Origin: Chloroflexota bacterium
GTDB lineage: Bacteria; Chloroflexota; Limnocylindria; Limnocylindrales; CSP1-4
Length of the DNA: 37,735 nt
Reading direction: 5' to 3'
NCBI GenBank assembly: GCA_015478725.1
Contig: JADMIG010000006.1
Location: 83,781-121,515 of the forward strand
Below the pieces are notes generated by a model, which saw only the letters and a list, made by a program, of their open reading frames with translations, had not been told where the DNA came from and searched no databases. Below, in pieces: positions 27,481-37,735 of this stretch. Positions within the stretch are counted from its first letter, which is position 1. Every line of letters starts with the position of its first letter. The translations under genes were made by a program, and so were the position numbers.

Positions 27481-28449
27481 TCAGGAGGCCGATCCCGGCA
27501 TCGTCCCCGCGTCGCTGCTCGTGGCGGCCGCCTCGACGGTCGTCGCGTCGGCGTTCATGAGCGCTTCGAGCTCTGTCGCCAGCTCCGCGAGCTCATCGCC
27601 ACCGCCCATGAGGCGAAGGAGCTCATCCTGCCCGACCTCGCCACGGACGAACTCGCCGGCGAGGCGGCCATGGGAGAGGATCGTGAACCGGTCGCCGACC
27701 GGCAGTGCGTGCTGGACGTTATGGGTGATGAAGATGACCCCGAGTCCCTTGGCCCGGGCGCGGATCACGTGGCGGAGGACGATCGCGGCCTCCTTCACGC
27801 CGAGCGCGGAGGTGGGCTCGTCGAGGATGAGCACCCGGGCCCCAAAGTACTCTGCCCGCGCGATCGCGAGCGTCTGGCGCTCGCCGCCGGAGAGCGTTCC
27901 GACGAGCTGGCTCGTGTCGCGGATCCGGATGCCGATCTCGAGCATCTGCTCCGTCGCGATCCTGCCCGCGGCCGCGACGTCGAACCGCTTGAACGGTCCC
28001 CAGCCCACGGTGGGCTCCGACCCGAGGAAGAAGTTCCGGCTGACGCTCATGAGCGGCAGCACGGCCAGATCCTGGTAGACCGTCGCGACACCCCGGTCGA
28101 GCGCGTCCCGTGGCGAACGGAGTGTCACGGGGATGCCGTCCATGAGCATCGTTCCCTCATCCGGCGTGTGGACGCCGGAGAGGATCTTGATGAGCGTCGA
28201 CTTCCCGGCACCGTTGTCGCCGAGCAGGCAGTTGACCTCGCCCGGCCGAACGGAGAGTGAGACATGCTCGAGGGCGATCACCCTCCCGAAATACTTCGAG
28301 ATGTCGCGCGCCTCGAGGATCGGCGTCGCGGAGGGCGCCGGCCCCGCACCCTGCGTCCCGTAGCCCGCGATCCGGGCCGCGGTGTCGGCGGGCAGCGTGA
28401 ACGGGGCATCGTCGTGGGGCATCGGCTCGAGGCCGTGGGGCGGTCGCAT
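27481..28449 (-). CDS. Sugar ABC transporter ATPase, single-domain (FrcA-like)
   Basis: A 322-residue ATPase. An Ala/Pro-rich tail of ~45 residues is followed by one nucleotide-binding domain: [16 protein letters not shown] (Walker A), [23 protein letters not shown] (Q-loop), [16 protein letters not shown] (signature), [12 protein letters not shown] (Walker B) and FITHN (switch His). Ribose-type ATPases such as RbsA usually carry two such domains; this one resembles the single-domain FrcA type and should work as a homodimer. ATG 28449 overlaps the permease stop as TGATG; a second ATG at 28419 would remove ten residues. It energises import with the adjacent permease and binding protein. Confidence 0.9.
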
Positions 28450-29495
28450 CAGCGGGTCCCCGAGGCGCGGCGCAGGACGTACTGGTTGACGAGCGACGCG
28501 GAGAAGAGGAGCAGCCCGAGCACCGCGAGATACCAATCGGTGTTGATTCCGGCATAGAAGATGCCGAGGTTCGTCACGCCGAGGATGAATGCGCCGAGCG
28601 CGGAGCCGATGGCGGAGCCATAACCGCCGGTGAGGAGGGTTCCGCCGACGACGGCGGTGATGATCGCCTGGAACTCGAGGTTGGTGCCGACAAGGACGTT
28701 GGCGCTCCCGACCGCTGGGGTGACGATGCAGGCGTACAGCGCGGCGGACGCGGCGGTCGCCATGAACAGGATGATCTTCACCCGGTTCACCGGGACGCCG
28801 ACATAGCGGGCCGCGACCGGCGAGCCGCCGACGGCGAAGATCCAGTTCCCGAAGCGGGTCCGAAGGAGGACCCAGCTCGCCACGGCGACCACGATGATCC
28901 ACCAGACGAGCTCCATCTTGAACGAGCCGGTGTCGATCTTGAAGAGCGTCGTCGCGAACGGCGCGAAGGCCGGATCGCTCGCTGCGCCGGTCGGGAGGGC
29001 GACGATTGTCTGCTGCGTGATGGCCCGGGTGAGGGCGATCGTCGTCCCGCGAAGGACGAACTGGCTGGCGAGGGTGACGATGAACGACGGGAGCCGCGTC
29101 TTGACGACGAGCCACCCGTTGAGGGCCCCGATCGCGAGGGCGAACGCGAACGTCAGCGGGATGGCGACGACCGGCGGCACACCAAACTGGCTGATCAGCA
29201 GCGAGAGGAAGATGGACGCCGCGCCGACCATCGAGCCGATCGAGAGGTCGAACTCCCCGGCGATCATGAGAAGCGTGACGGCGGCGCCGAGGATGCCGAC
29301 CTGCGCGGCGAGCTCGAGGTAGCCGCCGAAGCCGGCCGGGCTGAGGAAACCCGAGCGTCCGCCGAGGATGGCGAAGATGGCGAAGACGAGGATCGCCCCG
29401 ACGAGGGCGCCCACCTCGGGACGCGAGGCGACCCGGCGGAGCGGACCCTCTGCCCGGAGCCGGCTGGGCGGTGCCGCCGGGGCGACGACGGTCAT
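28449..29495 (-). CDS. Sugar ABC transporter permease (RbsC/FrcC-like)
   Basis: A 348-residue inner-membrane protein with about nine hydrophobic segments. Family motifs are [18 protein letters not shown] (the GxDLSxG segment), [41 protein letters not shown] (cytoplasmic coupling loop) and [25 protein letters not shown]. These are shared by ribose, xylose, fructose and inositol permeases. The ATG at 29495 has GGAGGG eight bases upstream. A strong hairpin separates it from the binding-protein gene, and it overlaps the ATPase gene. The substrate is probably a cyclitol or monosaccharide given the iol-type neighbours. Confidence 0.92.
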
Positions 29496-29568: not shown

Positions 29569-30555
29569 CTACCGGGTGGTGCCGGTGTTCGCGATCACGG
29601 TCGCGACGTTCGTCTTGTCGACGACGCCGGGGCCGGTGAGGACGGGCTGCCCACCGCCGGGCATGAGCCCGTAGAGGTGATAGTAGGTGAGGAAGACGAC
29701 CGGCAGGTACCCCTGCAGCCACTGCTGCTGGTCGATCGCGAAGTCGACGGTACCGGCCTGGATGGCGGCGAGGACGTCCTTCGAGAGGTCGAAGGTCGCG
29801 AGATGGACCTTGCCGGCGAGGTTGAGGGCGGTGATCGCCTTGAGGGCCGGCGCAGCGCCGGTGGGGCCGAGGGCCATGACGCCGTTGATCGTCGGATCGG
29901 CCTGCAGGGCCGCCGTGATCTTCTGCTGAGCGCCGGACTGGTCGTTGAGGTCGACCTGGAGGACGGTGGACTTGCCGCCGAGACCGGTGGCGAAGCCCTT
30001 GCACCGGGCGTCGAGGCCGGCGTTGCCGACTTCCTGGTTGATGCAGATGGCGTTCGTCACGCCGGCCGCCTTCATGAGCGAGCCCGCCTTCTGGCCCGCG
30101 ATCGACTCATCCTGGCCGACGTGGGTGAGGACGCCGAGCTTGGCGTACACGTCTGAACCGGAGTTGGCGGAGATGACCGGGATCCCGGCCGCGACCGCGG
30201 CCTGGATGTGGGGGCCGAGGGCCGTCGCATCCGGGATCGAGACGACGAGGCCGGCCGGCTTCTTTGCCACCGCAGCGTCGATGAGCTGACCCATGGCGTT
30301 CATGTCGAAGGTCTGCGGGGCGTTGTACTCGACCTTGACGCCCATGTCCTTGGCGGCCTGGTCGACACCGTTCTTGAAGATGCTCCAGAACGGATCGGAC
30401 GCCTGACCGTGGGTCACGACCTCGATGAGGATGCCGGATCGGTCGGCACTTCCACCGCCGCTCCCGCTCGACGGGGCGGGCGTCGCCGCACTCGAGCAGG
30501 CGCTCGCGACGAGCGCGACGCTCCCGGCGAGCGCCAACAACTTCGGGACTCTCAT
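29569..30555 (-). CDS. Periplasmic-type sugar-binding lipoprotein
   Basis: A 328-residue substrate-binding protein. The signal peptide [20 protein letters not shown] gives lipid-anchored Cys20, followed by an Ala/Ser/Gly linker to ~37. The mature part is a peripla_BP_4-type sugar-binding fold: [92 protein letters not shown] and [20 protein letters not shown]. Relatives bind ribose, inositol and other sugars. ATG 30555 follows GGAGGAG at good spacing; the open frame upstream is ignored. It lies 90 bases after the dehydrogenase gene and begins the transporter part of the operon. Confidence 0.92.
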
Positions 30556-30645
30556 GTGCTCCTCCTCTGACTGGCGGCCGCCGCGAGGCGGTGAGTCGCG
30601 GACATTCTCGCGCATCGGGGAACCCCGCTGCACATGTTCGCCTGA

Positions 30646-31638
30646 CTAGATCTCGGTCACCAGGACCGGGCGCTGTTCGCGACGGGAGCGGTCGGCGGCG
30701 ATCGCCGTCCGCAGGGCGGCGATCCCGTCGCGTCCGGTGCACGGGCTCGGTGCGTTCCCTGCCGCGACGGACAGGAAGGCGTCGAGCTCGGCTCGGTACG
30801 CTTCCGGGAACCGATCGAAGAAGTTCGGCCAGGCGGGACCTGCCGGCGCCGGGACCCCCGGCTCGGCGGACCGGAACGGGCTCCGTGGTCCGAGACCGAC
30901 GACGACGCTGTCCCGCGATCCGTACACCTCGGCCCGGATGTCATAGCCGAGCGGATCGTGGCGGGTCGTCATGAGGGTGGCGAGGACGCCGTTCGTCATC
31001 CGCAGTGACGCCACCGCGGTGTCGACGTCGCCGTACTTCGCGAAGACGTCGAAGCCGCGCACGCTGCCCATCGCGTAGATCTCCTCGACGTCCGCGCCGA
31101 CGAGCCAGCGGACGATGTCGAAGTCGTGCACGCTGAAGTCGCGGAAGATCCCGCCCGACGTCGGGATGTATGCCTCGTGCGGTGGCTCGGGATCGTGGCC
31201 GTGGAGAGCGACCGCATAGATCGTGCCGAGCTCCCCGCTCGCGATGAGCCGGCGGGCCTCGAGGTAGCCCGGGTCGAAGCGGCGCTGGAACCCGAGCTGG
31301 AGAGGGATGCCGGCGCGCTCGACGTGCTCGACGACGGCGACGCTCTCGGCGAGGTCTTTCGCGATCGGCTTCTCGCAGAATGTCGGCAGGCGCCGGTCCG
31401 CGGTCGCCCGGATGAGCTCCGCATGGGCGTCCGTCGCGGCGGCGATGACGACCGCCTCGGCACCGTCCATCGCCGCGTCGATCGTGGGGCTCGGGGCCGC
31501 TCCGACGCTCCGTGCGACCTCGGCGGCGCGGGCCGTGTCGACGTCCGCGACGAGGAGCTCGGTGACGCCCGCGCAATCGACGAGGTTGCGGGCGTGCATC
31601 GCTCCGATGCGGCCGGCGCCGATGAGGGCGACCCTCAT
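30646..31638 (-). CDS. Gfo/Idh/MocA-family dehydrogenase, IolG-like
   Basis: A 330-residue NAD(P)-dependent oxidoreductase. The N-terminal Rossmann fold reads MRVALIGAGRIGAMHARNL, and FCEKPIAKDLAESV (~91-104) carries the catalytic Lys of the EKP motif. The catalytic Asp/His region is GGIFRDFSVHDFDIVRWLVG. In iol clusters this family oxidises myo-inositol to scyllo-inosose, and the position, directly ahead of a sugar ABC transporter and under the shared iol operator, supports that. Other cyclitols or sugars are possible. ATG 31638 overlaps the stop of a 9- or 16-codon leader frame, with GGAGG nine bases upstream. It is the first large gene of the minus-strand operon. Confidence 0.88.
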   Translation of the reverse strand: MRVALIGAGRIGAMHARNLVDCAGVTELLVADVDTARAAEVARSVGAAPSPTIDAAMDGAEAVVIAAATDAHAELIRATADRRLPTFCEKPIAKDLAESVAVVEHVERAGIPLQLGFQRRFDPGYLEARRLIASGELGTIYAVALHGHDPEPPHEAYIPTSGGIFRDFSVHDFDIVRWLVGADVEEIYAMGSVRGFDVFAKYGDVDTAVASLRMTNGVLATLMTTRHDPLGYDIRAEVYGSRDSVVVGLGPRSPFRSAEPGVPAPAGPAWPNFFDRFPEAYRAELDAFLSVAAGNAPSPCTGRDGIAALRTAIAADRSRREQRPVLVTEI

Positions 31639-31733: not shown

Positions 31734-31745
31734 GTAATCGATTGC
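31734..31745. promoter_or_regulatory. LacI-family operator, copy 1
   Basis: GTAATCGATTGC: the core AATCGATT is a perfect palindrome with a central CG, as in LacI-family sites, and ten of the twelve bases are symmetric. The same 12 bases recur at 35011-35022. It lies about 11-22 bases downstream of the predicted start of the minus-strand dehydrogenase/transporter transcript, where a bound repressor would block elongation. Confidence 0.72.
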
Positions 31746-32111: not shown

Positions 32112-33152
32112 TCACCGAGGTCCGGCGGCGGGGCCGGTGGATCCGCGGACGACGAGCCGGACCGGGAGTCGCACGATCTCCGCGATCTCCGTGACCTCCG
32201 CTCTCGTCGGTGTCGCCGCGTGCTCGTCGATCCGCTCGATGAGGCGCCGGACGGCCCACTGGCTCATCGCGACCGTCGACTGGGCGACCGTCGTGAGCGG
32301 CGGGTCCATGTACCCGGCGAGCGAGAGTCCGTCGAAGCCGACGACGCTCACGTCCTCGGGCACTCGCCGGCCGGAGGCCCGCAGCGCACGGAGCGCTCCG
32401 ATCGCCGTGAGGTCGTTGTAGCAGATCACGGCACTGAGATCCGGCGAGCGGCGGAGGAGTCGGGCCATCGCCCGCTCGCCCTCCGCGACGTGCCCGTCGC
32501 CGACGGCGAGACGGAGCGTCCCCACGCTCCGCCCGGCCCCCACCAGCCCGTCGCGGATCCCGGCCAGCCTCGGCCGCGCCGCACCGTGGACGGCCGGCGC
32601 CCCGATGTGCCCGATCGTCCGGTGACCGAGCCCCACGAGATGCTCCGCGGCGAGGCGGCCGCCCGCTCGATTGTCCGAGAGGATCGTCGGCACGCCCGGC
32701 ACGGACAGCTCGGAATTCATCATCACCACCGGCAACGGCGCCCTCGCGAGCCAGCGTGCGTGCCGCTCGCCCACCCCGCCGCTCGCCACGATGATCCCAT
32801 CGACGCGCCGCTCGGCGAGGATCTCGAGGTAGGCGGCCTCCCGTTCCGGATCGTCGGCGCCGTTGCAGAGGACGACCGCGTATTCCGAGCCGACGGCCGC
32901 ATCCTCGACGGCCCGCACGATCTCGGCGAAGAACGGGTTCTCGACGTCCGTGATGATGAGGCCGATCGTCCGCGTCCGTTGAAGCTTGAGAGAACGGGCG
33001 ACGCCCGACGGGCGATAGCCGAGCTCCTCCACGACGGCGAAGACGCGGGCCCGGGTCTCCGGGCGGGCCCGGAGCGCCCCGGAGAGGATCCGGCTCACCG
33101 TCGCCGTCGAGACGCCGACGCGGGCCGCCACGTCCGCCATGGTGGCACCCAT
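32112..33152 (-). CDS. LacI-family transcriptional regulator of the cyclitol locus
   Basis: A 346-residue LacI/GalR protein. Residues 1-60 are the DNA-binding head: MADVAARVGVSTATVSRILSG, then the hinge helix region YRPSGVARSLKLQRTRTIGLI. The rest is the sugar-binding-protein-like sensor (ENPFFAEIVRAVEDAA, RVDGIIVASGG, ICYNDLTAIGALRALR, VSVVGFDGLSLAGYMDPPLTTVAQ). It lies 36 bases after the IolD-like gene on the same strand, so it is probably expressed from that promoter. The two matching GTAATCGATTGC palindromes at the locus are the likely binding sites. Repression relieved by an inositol-pathway metabolite is the usual scheme in such clusters, inferred here. Confidence 0.92.
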   Translation of the reverse strand: MGATMADVAARVGVSTATVSRILSGALRARPETRARVFAVVEELGYRPSGVARSLKLQRTRTIGLIITDVENPFFAEIVRAVEDAAVGSEYAVVLCNGADDPEREAAYLEILAERRVDGIIVASGGVGERHARWLARAPLPVVMMNSELSVPGVPTILSDNRAGGRLAAEHLVGLGHRTIGHIGAPAVHGAARPRLAGIRDGLVGAGRSVGTLRLAVGDGHVAEGERAMARLLRRSPDLSAVICYNDLTAIGALRALRASGRRVPEDVSVVGFDGLSLAGYMDPPLTTVAQSTVAMSQWAVRRLIERIDEHAATPTRAEVTEIAEIVRLPVRLVVRGSTGPAAGPR

Positions 33153-33188: not shown

Positions 33189-34997
33189 TCACCGCTGCTG
33201 CTCCTCCGCGAGGCCGGCGAGGTATCGGGCCCGCTCCTCGGGGTGGTATTCGGGGCTCGGGGCATCCCACCAGCCGGTCTTCTCCGGCCCGGCCACGGCG
33301 AGATCGCGGTCCACCCGGACATGCACGAGCGACGGGCCGCCGGACGCGAGCGCCCGCTCGACCGCAGGGCGGACCTCGTCCGGCCGTGTCGCCTGTTCGG
33401 TGTGGACGCCGAACGCTCGGCCGATCGCGGCGTAATCCGGCTGGTAGAGCTCCCCACGACGGAGGAAGTCGGTGGCCGCGCTGCGGCCGAAGAATGTCCG
33501 TTGGCCGCCCTTGATGCTGATCCAGCCGCTGTTGTCGAGGACCACCATGCAGACCGCCACGTCGAGCATCGCCGCAGCGGCGAGCTCCTGCATCGTCTGG
33601 AGGAAGCTCCCGTCGCCGCCGATCGCGAGGACCTGCCGGTCCGGCGCCGCGAGCTGGCAGCCGATCGCGGCCGGCAGCTCGAAGCCCATCGTGGAGAACC
33701 CGCCCGACGTGATGTGGGTCCTCGGCCGGCGCGTCACCCAGCGTTGCTTGACGATCCCCTGGGGCAGTCCCGCGCCCGTGACGACGATGGCATCCGGCCG
33801 GGTCGCCGCCTGGATCTCGCGGGTCGCCCTGGCCATCGTCATCGGGACCGCGTCGGATCCGGAGAGGCGCTCGAGGCTCGCGAACCAGGTCGCCGTGCGA
33901 CGCTGGATCTCCTCAAAATAGGCGCTGTCGCGGTACACGGTGGGGCCGCCTCCGGGTCCCAGCGCCGCGAGGAGGTCGACGAGGACCGCCTTCGCGTCGC
34001 CGACGAGCGACGCCTCGACCGGATAGTTCTTGCCGATCTCCCGCGGATCGATGTCGATCTGGACGAGCCGGGAGGGCGGGATCGAGAACGTCACGCCCTT
34101 GCGGTACGACGAAGCGCTCCAGTCCGTGAAGCGGTTCCCGACGGAGATGACGACGTCGGCGCTCGCGGCGAGTTCGTTGCCGCAGGTCGAGGCGGTGTCG
34201 CCGATCGTCTGGCCCGCGAGCTCGTGGGTCTCGTCGATCGCGCCCTTGCCCTGCCACGTCGTGACGACCGCTGCGCCGAGTCGCTCGGCGAGTGCGGTGA
34301 GCTCGGCGGCCGCGTCGGCGAGGATGACCCCTCCCCCGGCGACGATGACCGGCCGTCGGGCGCCGCGGACGAGTGCCGCCGCCCGCTCGACATCGTCGGC
34401 AGCAGGGCGGAGACGGCCGCGAGCCTCGCGGGCGGCCGGATCGGGGAGGACGACGTCCGCGGACTCCGCCTGAAGGTCCATGGCGAGATCGAGGAGGACC
34501 GGTCCGGGACGCCCGGAGACCATCTGATTCCACGCCCGATGGAGGACGAACGGCAACTCGTCCACTCTCGACGGCTGCCACCACTCCTTCACGACCGGCT
34601 CGAAGACCCGCGGGTTGTCGGCAGCGTGGCGGCGCTCGAACTCCTGGAACAGGCCGTGACCGCGCATGTACGTATGGGCCGAACCCACGGCAAGGAGGAC
34701 GGCCGTCGAATCCACATACGCGGTGCCCATCCCGACGACGGTGTTCATCGCGCCGGGACCGATGCTCGAGAACGCGAGCATCGGTCGGCCGCTGACCCGG
34801 TACCAGCCGTCGGCGAGGTGGACCGCCGACTGCTCGTGCATCACCTGAACGGTCCGGATCGCGTCGCTCCGATCGATGAGCGCGTCGACGATCGCCCAGC
34901 AGCCGTGGCCGGGGATGCCGGCGGCGTGGGTGACGCCCTGGCGGACGAGGTATTCGACGAGGATCTGCGCGCCCGACAGGCGCACCGGCTCGGCCAT
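33189..34997 (-). CDS. ThDP-dependent enzyme, IolD-like (trihydroxycyclohexane-dione hydrolase candidate)
   Basis: A 602-residue member of the acetolactate-synthase/IolD family. Its N-terminal ThDP domain has IPGHGCWAIVDAL and VMHEQSAVHLADG with the activating Glu; the middle FAD/dehydrogenase-like domain has RRPVIVAGGGVILADAA; the C-terminal cofactor domain has GGDGSFLQTMQ followed by VVLDNSGW (the GDG...N metal-binding motif). The closing GWWDAPSPEY resembles the WWDVP end of IolD. IolD opens the ring of the diketone intermediate of inositol breakdown; length and neighbours (IolB, IolE-like, IolG-like) fit, but similarity to general acetolactate-synthase-type proteins leaves room for another decarboxylating or C-C-cleaving role. 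ATG 34997 lies 14 bases inside the operator of the divergent promoter. Confidence 0.75.
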   Translation of the reverse strand: MAEPVRLSGAQILVEYLVRQGVTHAAGIPGHGCWAIVDALIDRSDAIRTVQVMHEQSAVHLADGWYRVSGRPMLAFSSIGPGAMNTVVGMGTAYVDSTAVLLAVGSAHTYMRGHGLFQEFERRHAADNPRVFEPVVKEWWQPSRVDELPFVLHRAWNQMVSGRPGPVLLDLAMDLQAESADVVLPDPAAREARGRLRPAADDVERAAALVRGARRPVIVAGGGVILADAAAELTALAERLGAAVVTTWQGKGAIDETHELAGQTIGDTASTCGNELAASADVVISVGNRFTDWSASSYRKGVTFSIPPSRLVQIDIDPREIGKNYPVEASLVGDAKAVLVDLLAALGPGGGPTVYRDSAYFEEIQRRTATWFASLERLSGSDAVPMTMARATREIQAATRPDAIVVTGAGLPQGIVKQRWVTRRPRTHITSGGFSTMGFELPAAIGCQLAAPDRQVLAIGGDGSFLQTMQELAAAAMLDVAVCMVVLDNSGWISIKGGQRTFFGRSAATDFLRRGELYQPDYAAIGRAFGVHTEQATRPDEVRPAVERALASGGPSLVHVRVDRDLAVAGPEKTGWWDAPSPEYHPEERARYLAGLAEEQQR

Positions 34998-35010: not shown

Positions 35011-35022
35011 GTAATCGATTGC
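35011..35022. promoter_or_regulatory. LacI-family operator, copy 2
   Basis: GTAATCGATTGC, identical to the site at 31734-31745. It lies between the divergent IolD-like and transaldolase genes, at the expected -35 position of the plus-strand promoter and just downstream of the likely minus-strand start. One bound repressor could therefore silence both directions. Confidence 0.72.
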
Positions 35023-35111: not shown

Positions 35112-36209
35112 ATGGACGTCCTCACCGACACTCCCCTCGCCCGCACGGTCGCCGCGACGGCGACCGACATCTGGAACGATTCGTGTTCCGTCGAGGAGCT
35201 CGAGTACGCCGTCGCGAATGGCGCCGTCGGCGCCACGGCGAACCCGACCATCGTCAGCGACGTCTGGCGGTCCGACCCGGGCCGCTGGCGTGCGACGACC
35301 CGTGAGCTCGCGCAGGCCCACCCGACATGGACGGAGGTGGACCTCGCCTGGAGCATCGTCGAAGCGATGTCGCTCCGGGCGGCCCCGCTCCTCCTGCCCG
35401 CGCACGAACGGACCGGCGGCCGGCAGGGCCGACTCTCGATGCAGACCGATCCGACGTTCTGGCGAACCCCCGAGCGGATGCTCGCCCAGGGCGTCCATTT
35501 CGCCGGACTCGCGCCGAACATCATCGTGAAGTTCCCGGCCACCGCGGCCGGGATCGGCGTCATGGAGGAGGCGACATATCGCGGCGTCAACGTCAACTGC
35601 ACGGTGAGTTTCAGCGTCGCCCAGGCGGTCGCCGCGGCCGAAGCGGTCGAGCGGGGGCTTCGTCGGCGAGAGGTCGAAGGGCTGCCCGTGCACCGGATGG
35701 GCCCGGTCATCACGCTCATGATGGGCCGGATCGAGGACTGGCTCCGCGTCCAGACCGAGCGCGACGGGATCGTCGCGGACCCGCTGGCGCTGCCCTGGTC
35801 CGGCGTCGCGGTCTTCAAGCGAGCGTACGCTGTGTTCCGCGAACGGGGCCTTCGGGCCCGCCTCCTCGGCGCCGCGGTCCGCCATCACTACCACTGGAGC
35901 GAGCTCATCGGCGGCGACGTCGTCATCACCCTGCCGGCGATCTGGCAACGGCGGTTCAACGCCTCGGACATCGACGTGCGCCCGCGGATGGACGATCCGG
36001 TCCCGGCGGCGATCATCGCGGATCTCGAGCGGCACTTCCCGGACTTCGTTCGCGCCTATGAGCCGGACGGCCTGTCGCTCGACGAGTTCGACACGTTCGG
36101 GCCGACGGTCCGGACACTCCGCGCGTTCATCGGCTCCTACCACGATCTCCTCCACCAGGTCACGGACGCGGTCCTGCCGAATCCGGACGTCGCGACCTCC
36201 CGCGCATGA
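35112..36209 (+). CDS. Transaldolase-family protein
   Basis: A 365-residue TIM-barrel protein of the transaldolase family. It has DIWNDSCSVEELEYAVANGAVGATANPTIV (the TxNPT start), RLSMQTDP, NIIVKFPATAAGIGVMEEATYRGVNVNCTVSFSVAQAVAAAEA with Schiff-base Lys140, and a C-terminal part (HHYHWSELIGGDVVITLPAIWQRRFN) that resembles the usual phosphate/product loop. Transaldolases move dihydroxyacetone units or cleave related sugar phosphates. ATG 35112 has AGGAGG two bases upstream, rather close. Its TGA overlaps the iolB ATG, so the two are coupled. In an inositol pathway this enzyme could replace the IolJ aldolase or process a side product; this is inference, and no IolJ or IolC is in view. Confidence 0.85.
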   Translation: MDVLTDTPLARTVAATATDIWNDSCSVEELEYAVANGAVGATANPTIVSDVWRSDPGRWRATTRELAQAHPTWTEVDLAWSIVEAMSLRAAPLLLPAHERTGGRQGRLSMQTDPTFWRTPERMLAQGVHFAGLAPNIIVKFPATAAGIGVMEEATYRGVNVNCTVSFSVAQAVAAAEAVERGLRRREVEGLPVHRMGPVITLMMGRIEDWLRVQTERDGIVADPLALPWSGVAVFKRAYAVFRERGLRARLLGAAVRHHYHWSELIGGDVVITLPAIWQRRFNASDIDVRPRMDDPVPAAIIADLERHFPDFVRAYEPDGLSLDEFDTFGPTVRTLRAFIGSYHDLLHQVTDAVLPNPDVATSRA

Positions 36210-37183
36210 GTGGCTCGTCGGCCGGCGGCGATCCGCCGGTCGCGGCAGTCGCGCCGCCGAACCGCCTCGCCGTGGACGCGCTCCACCTGAGGCCGGAGGG
36301 CGACGGAGCGGTCGGCCTCGATCCGACACGAGCTGGCTGGCGGTATCTGTCGTTCGAGACACGGACGCTCGGCGCGGGCGCGGAGCTCGCGATCCCGTCG
36401 GACGGGCGGGAGACCGCCATCGTCGTGCTCGGCGGAGGCGGTGTCGCGGTCAGGCCCGGCGACGACCGGGGTGCCCTCCTCGAGCTCGCCGGCCGACGCT
36501 CGGTCTGGGATGGTCTCCCGTGGGCCGTCTACCTGCCGGCGGCGATCGGTGCGACCGTCGTGGGCGTTCCGCTCGATCACCATGGAAGCGTGGATCTCGC
36601 GATCGCCCGCTCTCCGATCGCCGCCCGGGCGAAGGCCACCGGGCGGCCGGTCGTGATCCGCCCGGAGGACTGCCGGATCGAGAGCCGCGGTGCCGGGAAC
36701 GCGACGCGACAGATCACCCACATCATCGCTCCCGAGTTCCCGGCCGATCGGCTGCTGCTCGTCGAGGTATATACGCCGTCCGGGAACTGGTCGAGCTGGC
36801 CGCCGCACAAGCACGACGTCGACGCGATGCCCGACGAGGCCGTCCTCGAGGAGATCTATTGCTACCGGTTCCGGCGGCCCGAGGACTGGGCGATCCAGCG
36901 GGTCTACCGGCGTCCGGGTACGCCCCTGGAACGATCATCCGGGCCACGCGACGCGCTCTGGGAGGTGCGCTCGGGGGACGTCGTCATCGTCACGGACGGC
37001 TACCACCCGTTCGTGACGAGCCACGGCGCGGACGCCTACTACCTCAACGCCCTCGCCGGCGACCGGCGGACGATGGCCTGCTCGTTCGACCCGGATCTCG
37101 ACTTCGTCCGGGCGGCGTGGGCGACCATGCCACCGGATCCGCGGGTCCCGCTCGTCGATGCCGGCGGACCGCGGAAACGTTAG
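36206..37183 (+). CDS. iolB: 5-deoxy-glucuronate isomerase
   Basis: A 325-residue bicupin, slightly longer than the usual ~270-300. The first cupin has GWRYLSFETRTLGAGAELAIPSDGRETAIVVLGG. The second holds the IolB signature: GNWSSWPPHKHD, then LEEIYCYRF, GDVVIVTDGYHPF and YYLNALAGDRR, giving His, His, Glu and His metal ligands. IolB converts 5-deoxy-glucuronate to 5-deoxy-5-keto-gluconate in inositol breakdown. Its ATG overlaps the transaldolase stop (ATGA). It ends 19 bases from the convergent IolE-like gene; no obvious terminator lies between. The first ~18 residues are a disordered-looking extension. The family call is strong and anchors the interpretation of the whole locus. Confidence 0.9.
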   Translation: MSGSSAGGDPPVAAVAPPNRLAVDALHLRPEGDGAVGLDPTRAGWRYLSFETRTLGAGAELAIPSDGRETAIVVLGGGGVAVRPGDDRGALLELAGRRSVWDGLPWAVYLPAAIGATVVGVPLDHHGSVDLAIARSPIAARAKATGRPVVIRPEDCRIESRGAGNATRQITHIIAPEFPADRLLLVEVYTPSGNWSSWPPHKHDVDAMPDEAVLEEIYCYRFRRPEDWAIQRVYRRPGTPLERSSGPRDALWEVRSGDVVIVTDGYHPFVTSHGADAYYLNALAGDRRTMACSFDPDLDFVRAAWATMPPDPRVPLVDAGGPRKR

Positions 37184-37202: not shown

Positions 37203-37735
37203 TCAGATGCCGAGCGTCGCGAGGTATCCCCGGTTCCTACCCTGGGCGGCGACGACGGCGTCGAGCGTGTCGCCCGTCCGCAGGTAGCGGTCCTGCTCCA
37301 CGACGACCCAGCCGTGGTAGTCGTGGCGACGGAGGGCGGCGACGACGTCGGCGATCCGGGCGTCACCTCGGCCGAGCTCGCAGAAGGCGCCGGCGCCGGT
37401 GAGCGCCTCGAAGTCCTCGCCGCGATCGCGGCCGGCAGCGAGGACCGCCGACGACACGTCTTTCAGGTGGACATGGCGGATGAGCTCGTGGTACGCCTCG
37501 ACGAGCGTCACCGGGTCGGCGCCGCCGAAGCGGGCGTGCCCGGTGTCGAGGCACAGGCCGAGGAGCGACGGGTCCATCGCCTCGAGGACCCGCCGGATCT
37601 CGTCAGCGGTCTCGACGTACGTCGCGGCGTGGTGATGGAGGACCGGCTCAAAGCCGGTCGAACGGCAGATCTCCGCCGCACGGTGCGGATTTCGCTCCAA
37701 TCCGATCACCCGTTTCGCTCCAATCCGATCAGTCG
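37203..37735 (-). CDS. Sugar phosphate isomerase/epimerase, IolE-like (inosose dehydratase candidate), C-terminal part
   Basis: The last ~177 residues of a xylose-isomerase-like TIM-barrel protein; the frame is still open at the right edge. It has VLHHHAATYVETADEIRRVLEA, LGLCLDTGHARFGGADPVTLVEAY, IRHVHLKDVSSA, GAFCELGRGDARIADVVAALRRHDYHGWVVVEQDR. The HHH, DTGH, HVHLKD and GxG...E residues are the metal and substrate ligands of IolE and IolI. IolE dehydrates scyllo-inosose, the step between IolG and IolD, so an inosose dehydratase is the best guess; IolI isomerase is the alternative. It converges on iolB. A 19-base repeat at the very edge (37690-37731) crosses the frame. Confidence 0.8.
   Translation of the reverse strand, partial: TDRIGAKRVIGLERNPHRAAEICRSTGFEPVLHHHAATYVETADEIRRVLEAMDPSLLGLCLDTGHARFGGADPVTLVEAYHELIRHVHLKDVSSAVLAAGRDRGEDFEALTGAGAFCELGRGDARIADVVAALRRHDYHGWVVVEQDRYLRTGDTLDAVVAAQGRNRGYLATLGI
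37690..37731. repeat. 19-base direct repeat at the right edge
   Basis: TTTCGCTCCAATCCGATCA occurs at 37690-37708 and 37713-37731, a 23-base period. It lies inside the IolE-like frame, and because 23 is not a multiple of three the two copies are read in different frames. This could be a real duplication or an artefact of the sequence end. Confidence 0.85.

Follow-up and report, generated by a model that had tools for sequence, protein, structure and literature searches.

A Gln-type transaldolase in inositol operons of uncultured Chloroflexota, where it largely replaces iolC: a probable kinase-free route for inositol breakdown

INTRODUCTION

In the classical pathway of Bacillus subtilis, inositol is broken down by the successive action of IolG, IolE, IolD, IolB, IolC, IolJ and IolA. 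The system described here shares with that pathway the steps leading to 2-deoxy-5-keto-D-gluconate (DKG), as well as the malonate semialdehyde that is expected to result. However, a single transaldolase is proposed to take over the IolC and IolJ steps, and most of the gene clusters concerned carry no recognised kinase. Cleavage of the DKG skeleton by means other than IolJ is likewise attributed to a DUF2090-IolC fusion (PMC9007349) and to a LacD-like aldolase encoded beside IolC, as on contig C4 of the genome studied here. Both of these aldolases act after IolC, whereas the present transaldolase is found mostly where IolC is absent.

The closest enzymatic parallel is SftT, which takes a C3 unit from sulfofructose and passes it to glyceraldehyde 3-phosphate, and in sulfofructose transaldolase (SF-TAL) a WAR motif orients the sulfonate (PMC11659671). 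The likeness lies in a transaldolase-family enzyme, encoded in a catabolic operon, that moves an unphosphorylated C3 unit of a C6-acidic ketose and leaves an acidic aldehyde (PMC11659671). SftT differs in its sulfonate substrate and in its length of 218-226 residues (PDB entries), whereas the protein described here has 365 residues, is akin to the longer transaldolases, and is only ~19% identical to SftT in a structural alignment. Furthermore, it is encoded in an inositol operon and carries Gln in place of Glu relative to the longer transaldolases. Searches of the open-access literature yielded no account of inositol being broken down with the help of a transaldolase, and no such enzyme is mentioned in an extensive survey of inositol clusters (PMC9430895). 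The findings presented below suggest that a group of uncultured Chloroflexota probably passes three carbons of the inositol-derived sugar acid to another sugar with no prior phosphorylation.

RESULTS

Organization of the inositol operon

The window, by which we mean the whole stretch of 37,735 nucleotides that was analysed, stops at a contig end, and the inositol genes occupy its last part. The transaldolase-family gene (35112-36209, plus strand) was assigned as a Gln variant from Pfam and NCBIfam matches, alignments, an AlphaFold model and its codons. It opens with an ATG preceded by the Shine-Dalgarno sequence GAGGAGG. Its stop codon shares the letters ATGA with the start codon of iolB (36206-37183, plus strand), which encodes 5-deoxy-glucuronate isomerase (TIGR04378, 231.5 bits; cut-off 205). 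The original prediction had drawn attention to this overlap and had proposed a survey of transaldolase-iolB pairs, and a 4-bp RTGA overlap was indeed found in 10 of the 14 pairs examined, the window included. The overlap is therefore not a chance junction.

On the minus strand, iolE for inosose dehydratase (37203-37733) is truncated by the contig end and matches positions 134-267 of the 290 in its model (TIGR04379, 122 bits). Divergent from the transaldolase gene is an IolD-like gene for a thiamine diphosphate enzyme (33189-34997, minus strand). This gene had been called iolD, and only the likeness stands, as its TIGR04377 score of 303 bits falls short of the cut-off (715), and so does its score of 369 bits with an acetolactate synthase model (cut-off 538). 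The IolD-like genes of transaldolase operons, far below the model as they are, are nevertheless 74-87% conserved among these operons. Further minus-strand genes encode a LacI-family regulator (32112-33152), an iolG-like inositol 2-dehydrogenase (30646-31638; TIGR04380, 305 bits, cut-off 355), a sugar ABC transporter substrate-binding protein whose closest family is that for rhizopine (29569-30633; NF052284, 317 bits, below the cut-off of 420), an ABC transporter permease (28449-29495) and an ABC transporter ATPase (27481-28446).

A LacI-type operator, GTAATCGATTGC, resides between the IolD-like gene and the transaldolase gene (35011-35022), 91 bp upstream of the transaldolase start, and its position is conserved in relatives. 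The second copy of GTAATCGATTGC lies upstream of iolG (31734-31745) and is supported both by this recurrence and by relatives. The core AATCGATT occurs twice in the window against an expectation of 0.18, and two occurrences were reached in 0 of 100 shuffles. In other genomes, the same site precedes the transaldolase gene, an iolD-type gene or iolB, in line with the original prediction, which had placed both the transaldolase gene and iolB after an iol operator. A AATCGATT site also precedes a split transketolase in one further locus (L073, 1-1730).

A transaldolase subfamily with an altered active site

The window protein matches the Pfam family TAL_FSA (PF00923) with 118.6 bits (cut-off 27), and this is its sole Pfam match; neither an IolJ-type class II aldolase domain (PF01116) nor DUF2090 was found in it. 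The best score with the NCBIfam transaldolase models is 88.8 bits, below the cut-off of 367 for canonical transaldolases. Its AlphaFold model (pLDDT 94.8) has the TIM-barrel fold of transaldolases. The closest solved structure is that of Neisseria gonorrhoeae transaldolase (Z 39.4, rmsd 2.0 Å, 321 residues), followed by that of Corynebacterium glutamicum (Z 38.4, rmsd 2.3 Å), with 321-333 residues aligned. These two enzymes are 23-24% identical to the window protein and, unlike it, carry the catalytic Glu in their native form. Members of the subfamily are 50-82% identical to the window protein, whereas the canonical, Glu-bearing transaldolases of relatives are only ~30% identical to it.

Catalytic roles were assigned by way of TalB, in which E96 is the catalytic Glu. 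The Schiff-base residue Lys140 (codon at 35529) is shared by every sequence in two alignments, of 30 and 28 subfamily members, and the equivalents of TalB Asp17, Asn35, Arg181 and Arg228 are kept in all aligned members. In the window protein, the alignments place these at Asp23 (codon at 35178), Asn44 (35241), Arg206 (35727) and Arg257 (35880), so that both phosphate-site arginines are invariant. In contrast, the position at which canonical transaldolases of the same class have Glu is occupied throughout the subfamily by Gln (Gln111, codon at 35442), and its invariance in relatives rules out a sequencing error. We found no base that would replace the catalytic Glu lost in the Gln variant. The defining feature of fructose-6-phosphate aldolase is a Gln and Tyr pair in the active site. 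Here the Gln is present and the Tyr is missing, the position of TalB Phe178 being taken by Met203. Another transaldolase-like subfamily, encountered in three loci (L110, L111 and L113), also has Gln at the Glu position and is marked by IVTEVF and PITGI motifs.

Exchange of transaldolase and iolC across genomes

We surveyed 151 genomes of the class, most of which are incomplete metagenome-assembled genomes (MAGs), and counted iolC at scores of at least 200 bits. In a first count, the 69 genomes with iolB comprised 40 with the transaldolase only, 17 with iolC only, 4 with both and 8 with neither (Fisher p = 6e-7, shared ancestry ignored). One genome, G102, was then moved out of the last group because its iolC had been reported by the search as two matches. 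The recounted numbers are 40, 18, 4 and 7, respectively (p = 1e-7, shared ancestry again ignored), and the same table by genus majority yields p = 2e-4. The remaining seven genomes with neither gene all belong to one genus. Thus, the transaldolase and iolC largely exclude each other among iolB-bearing genomes.

The strongest single case for this exchange is the G102 locus itself. Its contig C203 shares the layout of the window, with iolG, iolE, a divergent iolD (76% identical), the operator and iolB (59%). Between operator and iolB, iolC fills the transaldolase slot and runs onto iolB through an ATGA overlap.

Compact clusters that unite iolG, iolE, an IolD-type gene and iolB with the transaldolase gene, and that hold no IolC-type kinase, were found in loci L087, L088 and L094. 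When the IolC model was run against the three whole genomes, the best score was 104 bits, below the cut-off of 300. Beside the L094 cluster lies a protein with a weak PfkB domain match (36.5 bits). Across the 50 loci scanned, an IolC-type kinase occurs near the transaldolase in three, a count that is valid for IolC-like kinases only, as two of the seven seeds of the PfkB profile were mis-framed. A true iolC (354-396 bits) stands beside the transaldolase gene in L096, L109 and L100, clusters in which no other aldolase was recognised, and the transaldolases of these loci have the same active-site residues as the kinase-less members.

Several genomes of genus g3, including those of L126, L127 and L149, carry a divergent iolB (about 159-219 bits), and most of them have neither iolC nor the transaldolase. 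A short-chain dehydrogenase (SDR) gene is located near iolB in L126, L127 and L149. These genomes possibly represent yet another pathway variant.

Classical components elsewhere in the source genome

The source assembly comprises 3.4 Mb, is 96% complete and contains three iolB genes. The original prediction had noted that iolC was not in view, which holds for the window, although the genome has the gene elsewhere. A second inositol region on contig C4 contains iolD at full strength, a kinase gene resembling iolC (261 bits; the cut-off is 300) with iolB and the gene for a LacD-like aldolase, and further a split transketolase, iolG and one more iolB, which rules out the notion that classical genes are absent from the source genome. 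The other genes that had been proposed for inspection gave mixed results: a gene for MMSDH/IolA resides on contig C12, whereas the search for an IolJ-type class II aldolase returned a single weak match of 39.7 bits. The genome also has two PFK genes and, on contig C8, a separate transaldolase gene in which the catalytic Glu is retained.

A complete, co-regulated classical iolC/iolJ set elsewhere had been named as evidence against a variant pathway. The C4 genes do weaken the claim that the organism lacks the classical route. They leave the proposed role of the operon standing, since the transaldolase occurs in 40 iolB-bearing genomes in which no iolC was detected. Given the separate cluster of iolC and LacD-like aldolase, the source organism may possess both inositol routes, one through the kinase and one through the transaldolase.

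Other features of the C4 region merit mention. Its full-strength iolD coexists in one genome with the divergent IolD-like gene of the window. The order of genes in one part of it (L010, 6436-13430) is iolD, a DegT/LegC-type aminotransferase, iolC, iolB and the LacD-like aldolase, followed by unknown genes, and this cluster possibly serves the use of inosamine or rhizopine. The rhizopine family is also the closest family of the ABC binding protein of the window. A split transketolase is found beside the C4 inositol genes (L010, 15506-17397) and beside the transaldolase elsewhere (L064, 6678-8428; L073).

DISCUSSION

A proposed kinase-free route

We infer the substrate, acceptor and products of the window transaldolase from its family, its operon and operator, its retained and changed active-site residues, the near-exclusion of iolC, the in-place swap with iolC, and the adjacency of MMSDH genes described below. 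The reading that we favour, and consider somewhat better than even, is that the enzyme moves dihydroxyacetone from unphosphorylated DKG to glyceraldehyde 3-phosphate, with malonate semialdehyde and fructose 6-phosphate as products. Inositol would be converted to DKG by IolG, IolE, the IolD-type hydrolase and IolB. Lys140 would then form a Schiff base with the C5 ketone of DKG, a step that would replace phosphorylation by IolC. Numbered from C6, DKG has the same configuration as D-fructose at C3 and C4, and hence transaldolase chemistry would break the C3-C4 bond such that malonate semialdehyde leaves and the dihydroxyacetone unit stays bound. Transfer of this unit to glyceraldehyde 3-phosphate would yield fructose 6-phosphate, whereas malonate semialdehyde would pass to the IolA/MMSDH dehydrogenase. 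Phosphofructokinase and then aldolase would act on fructose 6-phosphate and regenerate the acceptor glyceraldehyde 3-phosphate. Because the acceptor would be regenerated in glycolysis, the overall balance of one ATP, one triose phosphate and one malonate semialdehyde would match that of the IolC/IolJ route. The precedent of SftT favours this reading, as do the two PFK genes and the separate Glu-bearing transaldolase of the source genome.

Against this reading stands the Glu to Gln change, which takes away a catalytic residue of transaldolases. More speculatively, the carboxylate of DKG, which is beta to the C3 hydroxyl, could serve as the base in place of Glu.

Alternative readings

The original prediction had suggested that the transaldolase could act on the phosphorylated keto-acid. 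The enzyme would then replace IolJ, cleaving DKG 6-phosphate to DHAP and malonate semialdehyde after the action of IolC or of an unrecognised kinase. The three loci in which a true iolC is present but no aldolase was recognised are what would be expected of such a 6-phosphate aldolase, and they count against our favoured reading, as do the iolC and LacD-like aldolase retained on contig C4 of the source genome. The aldolase step is moreover variable elsewhere, being assigned to IolJ or to a DUF2090 domain (PMC9007349). However, IolC is undetected in 40 iolB-bearing genomes with the transaldolase, an IolC-type kinase lies nearby in only 3 of the 50 scanned loci, and the slot that the gene has taken is that of the kinase rather than that of the aldolase. 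In transaldolases, phosphate is bound at the opposite end of the ketose, an arrangement that suits the free C6 hydroxyl of DKG. Because most clusters are without a recognised IolC-type kinase and the transaldolase sits in the kinase slot, the unphosphorylated acid is the likelier substrate and replacement of IolJ appears rather unlikely. The broader idea of a variant inositol pathway is thus strengthened by the exchange with iolC and by the G102 locus, whereas its phosphorylated substrate is disfavoured.

Two further readings were weighed. An enzyme of the fructose-6-phosphate aldolase kind would split unphosphorylated DKG into malonate semialdehyde and free dihydroxyacetone, the latter being phosphorylated later. 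Gln111 has its counterpart in the PDB variants E96Q/F178Y of TalB and E60Q/F132Y of the T. acidophilum enzyme, which we take to have been engineered to gain aldolase activity. We nonetheless regard this as improbable, in view of the Met that stands where the variants have Tyr, of the two invariant arginines that would be expected for a phosphorylated acceptor, and of the fact that no dihydroxyacetone kinase was recognised among the genes scanned in inositol clusters. An ordinary pentose-phosphate transaldolase, placed in the iol operon by happenstance, would account for the family membership and for the retained Lys. It would not account for a separate subfamily with ~30% identity to Glu-bearing transaldolases and an invariant Gln111, for the conserved operator and overlap, or for the exchange with iolC, and the same genome encodes another transaldolase. 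Happenstance is thus very improbable, and the distinct subfamily and the separate Glu-bearing enzyme rule out a pentose-phosphate role as the main reading.

If the transfer from unphosphorylated DKG is correct, it would add a route, liable to be misjudged in surveys based on iolC, for the use of a sugar alcohol that is common in plants and soil. It would also represent a further recruitment of transaldolase chemistry to an acidic unphosphorylated ketose, and a natural test of Glu to Gln replacement in a transaldolase. Since the same slot holds iolC or the transaldolase depending on the genome, the purification of two or three enzymes would suffice to test the question directly.

MMSDH adjacency and a second gene setting

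An MMSDH gene lies within 300 bp of the transaldolase gene in 16 genomes. In seven genomes the order is iolB-transaldolase-MMSDH, with MMSDH on the transaldolase strand in six of the seven, and the transaldolase is thereby placed between the enzyme that makes DKG and the enzyme that uses malonate semialdehyde. Several other MMSDH-adjacent cases belong to a second setting without iolB.

This second setting, which occurs in many genomes with no iolB nearby, includes genes for a GntR regulator, a dehydrogenase of the molybdenum hydroxylase type, MMSDH, an SDR most similar to gluconate 5-dehydrogenase, a hydrolase of the metallo-beta-lactamase fold and a split transketolase (around the transaldolase in L063, L064, L067, L073, L131, L140 and L144; also L105). 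PEP-synthase-like phosphotransferases are also found in these clusters. The gene content suggests that a 2-deoxy sugar may be oxidised to this same 5-keto acid by a seemingly undescribed route, for which the oxidative breakdown of deoxyribose offers an analogy (PMC6365646). The presence of the subfamily in clusters without iolB counts against our favoured reading. The suggestion that the enzyme recycles a sugar phosphate from another cyclitol is unlikely because the product of iolB is fixed, yet a non-inositol setting for the same subfamily does exist. A kinase-free route may exist in which a Gln-type transaldolase acts on the unphosphorylated acid, perhaps with help from its carboxylate, and enzymes of this type may also take part in a second sugar pathway, oxidative in nature, that leads to the same intermediate. 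We put this combined proposal forward tentatively, with rather less confidence than the transfer reaction itself.

Records that bear the labels Lokiarchaeota, Clostridia and other phyla contain single relatives of the subfamily. In a contig labelled as a Lokiarchaeota MAG (L099, 7046-10077), an iolG gene (450 bits) adjoins a Gln-type transaldolase gene, which could reflect either real transfer or mis-binning.
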